Of a stretch of DNA of 45,776 nucleotides, positions 1 through 4,054 are shown piece after piece. How positions within the stretch are numbered: position 1 is the first letter of the stretch; every line of letters begins with the position of its first letter. The position numbers and the translations under genes were made by a program. The DNA is from an uncultured bacterium (GTDB taxonomy: Bacteria > Cyanobacteriota > Vampirovibrionia > Gastranaerophilales > Gastranaerophilaceae). The notes beneath the pieces are model-generated. The model did no database searches, was not told the DNA's origin, and saw only the letters and a program-made list of their open reading frames with translations. The DNA lies in contig CASDPF010000019.1 of the NCBI GenBank assembly GCA_949282215.1, positions 1 to 45,776 on the forward strand. Reading direction: 5' to 3'.

Positions 1-187
1 ATGCAAAAGATAAGTATAGCAAGAATTTCGGGGGGGGGGGCTACCGACTAGCAGTTAAATCAAGTATTTCCGACTTAGACCTCCGATTGAAATTAAAAGA
101 GCTAAAAAGCAAGCCGTGCCAAGTGACACGGTGATTTTTGGTGTAAAAATTGTTAAAATAGAAAATAGTATAAAAACGGAGGACTAA
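1..187 (+). promoter_or_regulatory. Pilin leader element, copy 1 (poly-G tract, hairpin, SD)
   Basis: The window opens inside this element. It starts with an ATG at 1, followed by an 11-G run (30-40) in otherwise AT-rich DNA. A hairpin CCGTGCC-AAGT-GACACGG (114-131) is followed by a short T run, and the pilin SD CGGAGG lies at about 177-182. The reading frame from the ATG gives the short peptide MQKISIARISGGGATD and stops at TAG 49-51. A tract of 12 or 9 G would instead stay open to the TGA at 132-134, just beyond the hairpin. CCTCCG at 81-86 is complementary to the pilin SD. A second copy lies at 1069-1254. What is seen is a conserved structured leader; phase variation or attenuation is inference. 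Confidence 0.6.
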
Positions 188-925
188 ATGAAAAAGAGAA
201 ATGCTTTTACCTTAGCAGAGGTGCTAATCACGTTAGGTATAATCGGGGTTGTCGCAGCAATGACAATGCCTACAGTTATAAATAATATTCAAAATAAGGA
301 AAATATTAATAAATTAAAAAGAGAATATTCTATAATGCAGCAGGCATTCCAAAAAATAGCAGCAGAAAATGACGCTAATTTTAAAAATGCTCTTGCTGTC
401 TGTGCGAATGCTTCAAATAAGCATGCTTGTTTAAAAAATATTTTTAAAGCAAAATTGAACACTATTAATGATTGTGACATTAATAATGGCGAAAATTTAT
501 CAAAATGTTTTGTCTCTCAGGCTGATGCAAAGCAATTAAATGGTAAGCCTGTAAAATCAAGTGCTGGTTATTTTAATAATAATACAACTTCTGGTCTGGT
601 TTTAAATGATGGTAGTTCAGTAGCTTTCTGGCTGGATGATACAAATTGTATAACAGATTATGCTGTTTTAACACCTGCAAGTATGGAACGTTGCGGTTGG
701 ATTGTAATTGATGTTAACGGTCCATCTGCAAGACCTAATACTTGGGGAAAAGATATATTTTTATTTTTTATTTATTCAAAAAGAATATTGCCTGCTGATC
801 CAAAATATACCGGTGATACTTGTAACGGGCTAGATGAAGATATAGAATGTGTTCTGGGAGCTGATGATTGCGGTGCAGGTATCAATTATGGATTAACATG
901 TTCATATAAATATCTTTATGAATAG
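188..925 (+). CDS. Type IV pilin-like / pseudopilin protein
   Basis: This is a 245-residue protein with a class III (prepilin) signal. A short basic leader, MKKRNA, is followed by FTLAEVLITLGIIGVVAAMT. Prepilin peptidase would cleave between Ala6 and Phe7, leaving the conserved Glu at +5 of the mature protein. The hydrophobic helix continues to about residue 35, and the rest is a Cys-containing globular domain with a WGKDIF motif near the C-terminus. It is predicted to assemble into a type IV pilus or pseudopilus, or to sit in the inner membrane. The first 31 codons are almost the same as in the gene at 1255, while the rest differs, as in paralogs sharing a conserved assembly region. The start has a strong SD (CGGAGG, 6 bp spacing). 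A terminator follows at 931-957. Confidence 0.88.
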   Translation: MKKRNAFTLAEVLITLGIIGVVAAMTMPTVINNIQNKENINKLKREYSIMQQAFQKIAAENDANFKNALAVCANASNKHACLKNIFKAKLNTINDCDINNGENLSKCFVSQADAKQLNGKPVKSSAGYFNNNTTSGLVLNDGSSVAFWLDDTNCITDYAVLTPASMERCGWIVIDVNGPSARPNTWGKDIFLFFIYSKRILPADPKYTGDTCNGLDEDIECVLGADDCGAGINYGLTCSYKYLYE

Positions 926-930
926 TTAAG

Positions 931-957
931 AAGGGATAAGTTTTCTTATCCCTTTTT
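931..957 (+). terminator. Rho-independent terminator after first pilin gene
   Basis: A perfect 10-bp stem AAGGGATAAG / CTTATCCCTT with a TTTT loop is followed by a T run, six bases after the pilin stop codon. It separates the first pilin unit from the second leader. Confidence 0.88.
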
Positions 958-1002
958 AACTGCTATTAATAACTTTAATTTGTATTAGTATAGTTTATAA
1001 TC

Positions 1003-1033
1003 TTGAAAAATTTTAAAAATAGTTTAATATAAT
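1003..1033 (+). promoter_or_regulatory. Candidate sigma70-type promoter for second pilin leader
   Basis: TTGAAA at 1003-1008 and TATAAT at 1028-1033 are separated by 19 bp, slightly long. Transcription would start near 1040 and give a leader of about 215 nt containing the poly-G element. Another TATAAT at 996-1001 lacks a good -35, so the assignment is tentative. Confidence 0.35.
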
Positions 1034-1068
1034 AATATAAAGATAAATGAACTAATCAGGAGGCGAAT

Positions 1069-1254
1069 ATGCAAAAGATAAGTATAGCAAGAATTTCGGG
1101 GGGGGGGGCTACCACTTACAAGGTATAGTAAGCATTTCCGACTTAGACCTCCTATTGAAAGAAAAGAGCTAAAAAGCAAGCCGTGCCAAAAGACACGGTG
1201 ATTTTTGGTATGAAAAATGTTAAAATGGAAATTAGTATAAAAACGGAGGACTAA
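1069..1254 (+). promoter_or_regulatory. Pilin leader element, copy 2 (poly-G tract, leader peptide, hairpin)
   Basis: This is a second copy of the leader at 1-187. The first 45 nt are identical, including the 11-G run (1098-1108). About 20 nt then differ, and the following blocks are again nearly identical. A strong SD (AGGAGG) lies 5 bp before the ATG at 1069, so the short peptide MQKISIARISGGGATTYKV is probably translated. The hairpin CCGTGCC-AAAA-GACACGG (1181-1198) keeps its stem while its loop differs from copy 1, which supports a functional RNA structure. CCTCCT at 1149-1154 could pair with the leader SD. The pilin SD CGGAGG lies just before 1255. Confidence 0.6.
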
Positions 1255-1980
1255 ATGAAAAAGAGAAATGCTTTTACCTTAGCAGAAGTGCTGATTACCT
1301 TAGGAATAATCGGGGTTGTAGCAGCAATGACACTGCCGACATTAATTGAAAAACATCAAAAAAAAGTTACGGCTACAAGATTAAAAGCCGCATATAGTAT
1401 TTTTTCTCAGGCATTGCTTGCTGCACAAAAAGATTATGATGAACCAAAATATTGGGATTCTGCTAGAGGTCAGCTTAATACCGGTACAAGTAACGATAAA
1501 CTTGGAACAATTGCCTTTGTTGAAAAATATGTATTACCTTATGTTAAGGCCGGGAAATCTTATGGATGGAAAACTCTTAATGATATGGGTTATAAAAATG
1601 GATGGGTAAATTTAAACGGAACCCAAAGGACATCATCTAGTAGTAGTAGTTATTTTATTGAACTACCAAATCAAACACTTGTAGCTTTTAAACATAACAA
1701 TTTTTATATTAATGGCACAGATGGTCCTACAAGTCTCACTGATTTATTATTTTTTGTTGACATTAATGGAAAACAAAAACCAAACATTTTAGGTAGAGAT
1801 ATCTTTTTGCTTTATTATGATACAGCTAACGGTAAAGTAAATGCTTATTATATACATAATAAATTACCGCGAGAGACAATTTTAGAAAAATATTGTTCTA
1901 AAAGTAAGTCTGAAAGTGCATATTGTACAGCAGTTATAATGTTAGATGGCTGGGAAATAAAGGATGATTACCCTTGGTAG
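1255..1980 (+). CDS. Type IV pilin-like / pseudopilin protein, paralog
   Basis: A 241-residue protein whose prepilin leader and hydrophobic helix match the protein at 188 almost exactly (MKKRNAFTLAEVLITLGIIG, predicted cleavage after Ala6, Glu at +5). The globular part is different and includes a run of six Ser residues near residue 125 and a GRDIFLLYY motif resembling the GKDIFLFF of its paralog. It is predicted to be exported and inserted by the type IV pilus/pseudopilus machinery, none of which is encoded in this window. Its own leader element (1069-1254) suggests the two paralogs are expressed independently. The start follows CGGAGG with 6 bp spacing. Confidence 0.88.
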   Translation: MKKRNAFTLAEVLITLGIIGVVAAMTLPTLIEKHQKKVTATRLKAAYSIFSQALLAAQKDYDEPKYWDSARGQLNTGTSNDKLGTIAFVEKYVLPYVKAGKSYGWKTLNDMGYKNGWVNLNGTQRTSSSSSSYFIELPNQTLVAFKHNNFYINGTDGPTSLTDLLFFVDINGKQKPNILGRDIFLLYYDTANGKVNAYYIHNKLPRETILEKYCSKSKSESAYCTAVIMLDGWEIKDDYPW

Positions 1981-2799
1981 TTAGTGAACTTTGTAAAAAT
2001 CACTTCCGCCAATGACTTTATCTTTTAATTTTTTAAGTCCTGCTCCGTAGAAGTATTTCAACTGTTCAGGGAACTGTTCTGATATGTCAATTAAATACAT
2101 ATCATGGATAATAAATTCTTTTATCAAAAATACAATATCTTCATTTTTTGTCCAGATAATATCAGTTTCCTGATTTTTTGCTGGGGTTATTTTCCCAAAA
2201 CATCCTTCAATATTATCTGCTGCCATAAATATCATTTTCCCGCCAAGTGAATGCTCGATTTCCCGTCCGTTTACGTGTTTAAAAACTGTTCCAAAGTTAC
2301 AATTAAAATTGTCATAACCTACAATTTTTATATCAAGTCCGCGATTGTATGCTTCAAAAAGATATGGTTCAAAGTATTTGAAATCTTGCGACCAGATTTC
2401 TAAGAATATTTCTTTTGTTGCACTGTTTATAATCTCAATAATTTTTTTATGAATAGCTGTGCTGCCTGAAACTGTTAATATTGGTTCTGTATAGGAATCT
2501 TTTACGTTAGGAAGCTTTTTTTCGAGAAAATCAAGTGTGGATGTAATTTTTCTTTTATATCGTTTAGTTAATTCTTTAGGTCTTATTGGGGTATAGGTCA
2601 CAGGTTTTGTGTTTGAGGCTGTGACGATATGCTCCATTTCCAAAGCTTTCAGAGTATCATAAGCTCTTGCTTGTGGGATATCTGCAAGTTTACTTACCTC
2701 ATACCCTGTTGCAGGATATTTTTTTAACAAAGCGATATACACCTTTGCTTCATAACTGTTAAGACCAATTCCTTTTAAATTTTCTATTAATTCATCCAT
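1981..2799 (-). CDS. TrmB-family transcriptional regulator
   Basis: A 272-residue protein. The N-terminal winged helix (about residues 5-70) contains the TrmB-type pattern LNSYEAKVYIALL and IPQARAYDTLKALE, where the recognition helix lies. A coiled linker (about 75-95) follows, then a C-terminal effector domain with the TrmB/phospholipase D-like start KEIFLEIWSQDF. TrmB proteins are sugar- or metabolite-responsive repressors/activators, best known in archaea and also widespread in bacteria. The start lies one base after the stop of the gene at 2801-3415 (TAAGATG), so the two are cotranscribed and probably translationally coupled. It converges on the pilin gene, with the stop codons abutting. 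The effector is not predictable. Confidence 0.82.
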   Translation of the reverse strand: MDELIENLKGIGLNSYEAKVYIALLKKYPATGYEVSKLADIPQARAYDTLKALEMEHIVTASNTKPVTYTPIRPKELTKRYKRKITSTLDFLEKKLPNVKDSYTEPILTVSGSTAIHKKIIEIINSATKEIFLEIWSQDFKYFEPYLFEAYNRGLDIKIVGYDNFNCNFGTVFKHVNGREIEHSLGGKMIFMAADNIEGCFGKITPAKNQETDIIWTKNEDIVFLIKEFIIHDMYLIDISEQFPEQLKYFYGAGLKKLKDKVIGGSDFYKVH

Positions 2800-3978: not shown

Positions 3979-4054
3979 GGGGGTTTAGCTCAGCTGGTAG
4001 AGCACCTGCTTTGCACGCAGGGGGTCAGGAGTTCGAATCTCCTAACCTCCACCA
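3979..4054 (+). tRNA. tRNA-Ala (anticodon TGC)
   Basis: A complete 76-nt cloverleaf. The acceptor stem GGGGGTT pairs with AACCTCC and includes the G3-U70 wobble that identifies alanine tRNA. The D arm begins GCTCAGCTGG. The anticodon stem CCTGC/GCAGG holds loop TTTGCAC (anticodon TGC). The T arm is AGGAG-TTCGAAT-CTCCT. The discriminator is A and the CCA end is encoded. A terminator follows immediately. Confidence 0.97.

Follow-up and report, generated by a model that had tools for sequence, protein, structure and literature searches.

Nearly all long G runs in the genome of an uncultured bacterium of Candidatus Gastranaerophilales are associated with type IV pilin-like genes, and each run is probably a slipped-strand (contingency) switch of one pilin gene, which would operate through a leader attenuator in one class of loci (class A) and directly through the reading frame of the pilin in the other (class B). 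This proposal is founded on the observed anatomy of the elements, their reading frames, their copy number, the upkeep of the runs, length differences between sister species and an excess of OFF alleles among the assembled loci.

Two copies of the leader element in the window

The window (the whole stretch of DNA analysed, 45,776 nucleotides) opens with two pilin-like genes, both of which contain the prepilin cleavage/N-methylation motif, with PF07963 and TIGR02532 matches above the cut-offs. Each gene is headed by the same succession of a leader ORF containing G11, an intrinsic-terminator-like hairpin and a Shine-Dalgarno sequence (SD). The individual features are as follows.

1..29, + strand: start of the copy 1 leader ORF (MQKISIARIS...)
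30..40, + strand: copy 1 G11 tract
41..51, + strand: tail of the copy 1 short (11-G) frame, with stop TAG at 49-51
41..134, + strand: copy 1 long frame (12 or 9 G), with stop TGA at 132-134, at the 3' foot of the hairpin
113..139, + strand: copy 1 terminator-like stem-loop (113-132) plus T-rich tail
177..182, + strand: SD of pilin 1 (CGGAGG)
188..925, + strand: pilin-like gene 1 (PF07963 N_methyl, TIGR02532)
1003..1030, + strand: promoter-like site before copy 2 (TTGAAA-16-TAATAT), a consensus match only
1058..1063, + strand: SD of the copy 2 leader (AGGAGG)
1069..1097, + strand: start of the copy 2 leader ORF
1098..1108, + strand: copy 2 G11 tract
1109..1128, + strand: tail of the copy 2 short (11-G) frame, with stop TAG at 1126-1128
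1109..1172, + strand: copy 2 12-G frame, with stop at 1170-1172, 7 nt before the stem
1180..1206, + strand: copy 2 terminator-like stem-loop (1180-1199) plus T-rich tail
1244..1249, + strand: SD of pilin 2 (CGGAGG)
1255..1980, + strand: pilin-like gene 2 (PF07963 N_methyl, TIGR02532)

The leaders of both copies have the appearance of translated frames, with an SD, an ATG and the peptide MQKISIARIS, and their first 29 nt, from the ATG (1-3 and 1069-1071) up to the G run, are identical. The contig starts at the ATG of copy 1, and the SD of this leader therefore lies outside the window; it was located on contig C33 (AGGAGGCGAATATG), which overlaps the start of the window contig by 99 nt. A sequence-only reading of the window had described one element ahead of both pilins, consisting of an ATG, exactly 11 G, a patch of about 20 nt that differs between the copies and a series of conserved blocks. 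This anatomy was recovered in full, and CCTCC is among the conserved blocks found 3' of the variable patch in both copies. The statement that so long a G run is exceptional is borne out by six nine-G matches in the window, where shuffles give an expectation of 0.03. The frames that had been assigned to copy 1 are also correct: with 11 G the leader closes at the TAG at 49-51, and with 12 or 9 G it remains open to the hairpin, ending at the TGA at 132-134. The 10-G frame of copy 2 stops at 1199-1201. Pilin gene 2 is convergent with a gene for a TrmB-type regulator (PF01978; window 1981-2799, - strand), beyond which a tRNA-Ala (TGC) is found at 3979-4054 (+ strand).

Pilin-associated G runs across the genome

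The window belongs to a Candidatus Gastranaerophilales genome (G000) of 2.19 Mb in 45 contigs, which contains 89 runs of at least nine G. When the element copies were listed genome-wide together with the genes behind them, about 85 of the 89 runs were found by inspection to stand before pilin genes, either with the pilin downstream or with the element cut by a contig end. At least 70 of the 89 lie within 330 nt upstream, and on the same strand, of a TIGR02532 match, for which the chance expectation is 1.1%; the set behind this proximity count comprises at least 150 TIGR02532 pilin genes. About 65 copies belong to class A, which has the leader element seen in the window, and about 20 belong to class B, in which the G run is located inside the pilin frame. 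A leader ORF with a ribosome-binding site and an ATG contains the G run in 59 of the 62 class A copies having the hairpin. A covariance model of the part of the element that follows the tract gave 70 matches in G000, 39 in the sister species G003 and a total of 6 in three further genomes of this genus. An Rfam scan of the class A element returned no match at E<=1, and a search of viral contigs for the element returned none.

The exceptions among the 89 runs that are not linked to pilins include L141, L132, L133 (without a clear gene) and one chimeric contig end. At L141, G11 at 2024-2034 (G000:C11:20722, +) is positioned near the start of a Stealth-family phosphotransferase ORF (PF11380, PF17101, PF17103), which requires 10 or 13 G to be in frame and is therefore predicted to be OFF. 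L132 (G000:C5:50677, -) is a G9 run in the middle of a GT-D-like ORF, the downstream part of which fits the frame with 10 G. At the start of contig C1 (L112, 1-131) a GC-rich stretch is fused to the element, probably as a chimeric contig end, and at L115 (G000:C12:52.8 kb) N stands in place of the tract region, which fits assembly trouble at such tracts.

The pilins behind class A leaders display a median identity of 72% over their first 40 residues and of 27% over the remainder, and such a conserved N-terminus with a divergent body is as expected for variable surface proteins. At locus L200 (6236-7136), compared with L105, the upstream flank is near-identical between the sister species, and the element and the 5' end of the pilin look less alike, as if elements had been exchanged between copies.

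Reading frames, terminators and tract lengths

For each class A copy the position of the stop was computed from the leader ATG at 10, 11 and 12 G, a frame being taken to reach the hairpin when it ends within 15 nt of it. None of the 59 class A frames of G000 reaches the hairpin at 11 G, 53 do so at 12 G (26 of these with the stop inside the stem-loop itself) and 9 at 10 G. The 11-G stop is located at least 28 nt ahead of the hairpin in 58 of the 59 copies, the distance between this stop and the hairpin being about 60 nt in class A. In G003 the hairpin is reached by 0/20 frames at 11 G, 19/20 at 12 G and 3/20 at 10 G. About one third of the class A copies are shifted by 1 nt after position 47, so that the end of the long frame may fall ahead of the hairpin, within it or beyond it. 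These frames agree with the earlier claim that the length of the tract sets the point at which the leader ribosome stops; its further part, an effect on pilin expression, is taken up below as a component of the model. Shuffled canonical segments contain one open and two closed frames in 40% of cases, and the same geometry was found in 9-11% of shuffles of the other two architectures, whose 5' part is common to both. The geometry of the class A frames is supportive of a switch and alone not decisive, and it may have arisen by chance. The codon-position entropy of the long-frame peptide in class A displays no coding pattern, so only the openness of this frame could matter.

Judged by its sequence, an intrinsic terminator is positioned between leader and pilin. 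The canonical hairpin is a weak terminator of about -8 kcal/mol, with the tail GATTTTTG or GATTTGTG. Stronger versions are found in the sister species G007 and G004, where terminators of other sequence occupy the same place (-9 to -14 kcal/mol, with T-rich tails). The long frame of G007 ends at the 3' arm of the terminator (GGC TGA TTTTTT), and those of G004 read through the terminator at L042 and stop 10 nt before it at L053; the other frames of both species have their stops 29-35 nt ahead of the stem. CCTCC and the hairpin sequence are near-invariant in class A copies (window 41-139), beyond the needs of a plain terminator, and may represent another layer of control.

An unbroken run of 10-13 G is retained in nearly all class A copies whose tract was sequenced, the exception being L116 (G5AG5), and the leader SD and ATG are retained across the copies as well. 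Mean column identity across the element is about 80%, so that other positions differ by about 20%. Since the class A copies are related, their common 11 G is partly a matter of descent. One class A copy (L037, G006:C3) has an 18-G run, after which an AT-rich stretch splits the tract from the remaining element. Loss of MutS was considered as the cause of the long tracts and rejected, since G000 and most of its relatives have an intact MutS1.

In class B the G run sits between the start codon and the GFTLAEVLI motif, which is the part that prepilin peptidase removes, and the pilin is in frame at one of three tract lengths. Class B frames were obtained for 57 loci in 12 genomes. G000 contributes 21 of them, including three or four copies that resemble class A and whose frame happens to be uninterrupted, and the eleven further genomes sampled contribute 36. 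All sampled pilin-linked tracts with a readable start in another genus (G033, G091) belong to class B.

From the assembled tract lengths, 58 of the 59 class A alleles in G000 are predicted to be OFF and one to be ON (L108); the corresponding prediction for class B is OFF at 20 of the 21 loci and ON at one (L140). Over the 12 genomes, 8 of the 57 class B loci are predicted to be ON, which is below one third (p=8e-4). Tracts of 11 G were found at 3 of the 21 class B loci that would be ON at this length and at 24 of the 36 others (Fisher p=2.5e-4). As 11 G is rare at the loci where it would mean ON, 11 is not simply the preferred length; the lengths avoid the ON value. Syntenic loci of the two sister species differ in length, with 12 G in G003 against 11 in G000, and 11 against 10, in a comparison made between species with one genome per species. 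A pattern scan of G003 gave 30 copies with 11 G, 3 with 12 G and 1 with 10 G, and 12 or 13 G are also present in other contigs of the same genus.

A proposed poly-G switch, its alternatives and known systems

The upkeep of an unbroken run in nearly all copies, the length differences between sister species, the class A frames, of which one reaches the terminator and that of 11 G never does, and the class B loci with the run inside the pilin frame argue for the view, already put forward as a possibility in the sequence-only reading, that the G run is a slippage switch; the switching itself, through slippage in growing cells, is what we infer from them. At a class A locus with 11 G, and in most copies also at 10 or 13 G, the ribosome on the leader would halt 30-60 nt before the hairpin, the terminator would fold and the pilin would be OFF. 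With 12 (or 9) G the ribosome would run to or into the hairpin and block its folding, and transcription would continue into the pilin, which would be ON. This scheme presupposes that the hairpin terminates transcription, that the ribosome drives antitermination and that pilin expression follows, and class A would most likely work like the leader-peptide attenuator of Streptococcus gallolyticus pil1. At class B loci the length of the tract would directly set the frame of the pilin, within the N-terminal part cut off by prepilin peptidase.

Class A might instead act on translation, with the leader CCUCCG base-paired either to the G run or to the SD of the pilin (CGGAGG), and the SD being free or not according to where the leader ribosome stands. 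The leader segment UUAGACCUCCG matches the pilin SD region at 10 of 11 positions, CCTCC is nearly invariant and the pairing is often formed in single-sequence folds. However, the base that follows CCTCC does not covary with the one preceding GGAGG (56 copies, Fisher p=1.0), the consensus fold retains only the hairpin and a G-run pairing, and sister species are devoid of the motif and have a terminator instead, leaving a small but appreciable probability for this mechanism. It is rather improbable that RNA polymerase or the ribosome slips on the run, giving a mix of frames in every cell and a leaky, non-heritable expression. Long G runs are slippery and the pilin ORFs are intact though most assembled alleles are out of frame, but tract length differs at syntenic loci and the lengths are biased off the ON value, which is unexpected under a length-independent mechanism.

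The dozens of pilins with a common 5' end and differing bodies (72% identity over the N-terminal 40 residues, 27% over the rest), together with elements that look more divergent than their flanks at the syntenic locus, as if exchanged, would suit a G run that serves as a G-quadruplex recombination signal for gene conversion among the pilin copies, as in gonococcal pilE. Such a role is nevertheless rather improbable, since an uninterrupted G11 lacks the length to supply four G3 runs and the loops between them, and the tract is placed within a translated-looking frame, in class B that of the pilin itself, with its length tracking the frame. Class A leaders could also be remnants of fused (class B) pilins that have become dispersed, in which case the pilin's own start is used and the tract is no longer relevant. 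Some fused leaders do look like that of class A (MENLVRMRISGGGLPNSKHSKGFTLAES against MQK..ISGGGLPTNS) and the pilin is equipped with an SD and ATG of its own, but a relic is hardly credible when only a single run (L116) is interrupted among the fully sequenced copies, other columns averaging 80% identity, when the leader SD and ATG are kept and when nearly every copy has a terminator-like hairpin between leader and pilin.

Several known systems resemble the proposed poly-G switch in part. The poly-G/C contingency loci of Campylobacter, Helicobacter and Neisseria have a homopolymer in the 5' coding region, where a change of ±1 base shifts the frame; they mostly concern varied surface genes, whereas nearly all tracts here belong to the pilin family. 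Neisseria gonorrhoeae pilE is one expression locus that receives silent copies via gene conversion and has a true quadruplex motif. A large pilin repertoire and G-rich DNA upstream are common to both, but the present genome contains many complete genes, each with, as proposed, its own switch. For S. gallolyticus pil1 it was shown experimentally that a repeat in the leader ORF decides where the ribosome stops, a stop at least 28 nt before the hairpin giving low expression and one at or in the hairpin high expression, with translation relieving premature termination (Danne et al. 2014, PMC3894217). The pil1 and pil3 loci share with class A a simple repeat in a leader ORF with ribosome-binding site and ATG, a terminator stem-loop before the pilus gene, a short-frame stop tens of nucleotides upstream and a majority state, which is low there and mostly predicted OFF here. 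In contrast, they consist of GCAGA pentamers ahead of sortase pili at two loci of a Firmicute, whereas poly-G is found here with type IV pilin-like genes of a non-photosynthetic cyanobacterial lineage, where a single genome has about 65 paralogous copies at scattered sites and, in addition, about 20 fused loci. In the E. coli rph-pyrE attenuator a frameshift that relocates the upstream stop relative to the attenuator alters downstream expression (PMC2784333); that frameshift is a fixed laboratory mutation, unlike the hypermutable-type tract described here. The principle is already known, and what is new is the phylum and organism group, an attenuator of the pil1 type that would be built on poly-G, the expansion of this attenuator to about 65 copies, the coexistence with fused poly-G pilins and the mostly-OFF library. 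No earlier account of such poly-G pilin switches was found in the open-access journal literature that was searched.

On balance we favour a view in which the 2-Mb genomes of this gut family hold libraries of dozens to about 100 complete pilins, every gene governed by a poly-G switch of its own and nearly every one OFF in most cells, from which a population would sample one pilin or a few at a time; within one genus the fused switch would have been converted into a portable leader-attenuator cassette, by now found ahead of about 65 pilins. If so, Gastranaerophilales, which are abundant and little-studied gut bacteria, would possess one of the larger one-family phase-variable gene sets in a small genome, which would suggest that their pili are under strong pressure to diversify, through immunity, phage or adhesion. 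Repeat-gated leader-peptide attenuation, known experimentally from one streptococcal species, would then have arisen elsewhere and multiplied as a cassette. Because tract length would predict the ON or OFF state, expression states could be read off from metagenomic data that already exist.

Genomes of the family contain between 0 and 128 such G runs each. Three loci of G025 (L208, L215 and L222), without an in-frame pilin motif, have another repeated element after a G10 run (TAAACCGCTCAYACCAAAGGTTTTGGCGATTTTTT). At L213, L219 and L220 (G075, G004) a very long N-terminal stretch precedes the pilin motif, in some cases with repeat-like inserts of the HPELVSGS type.
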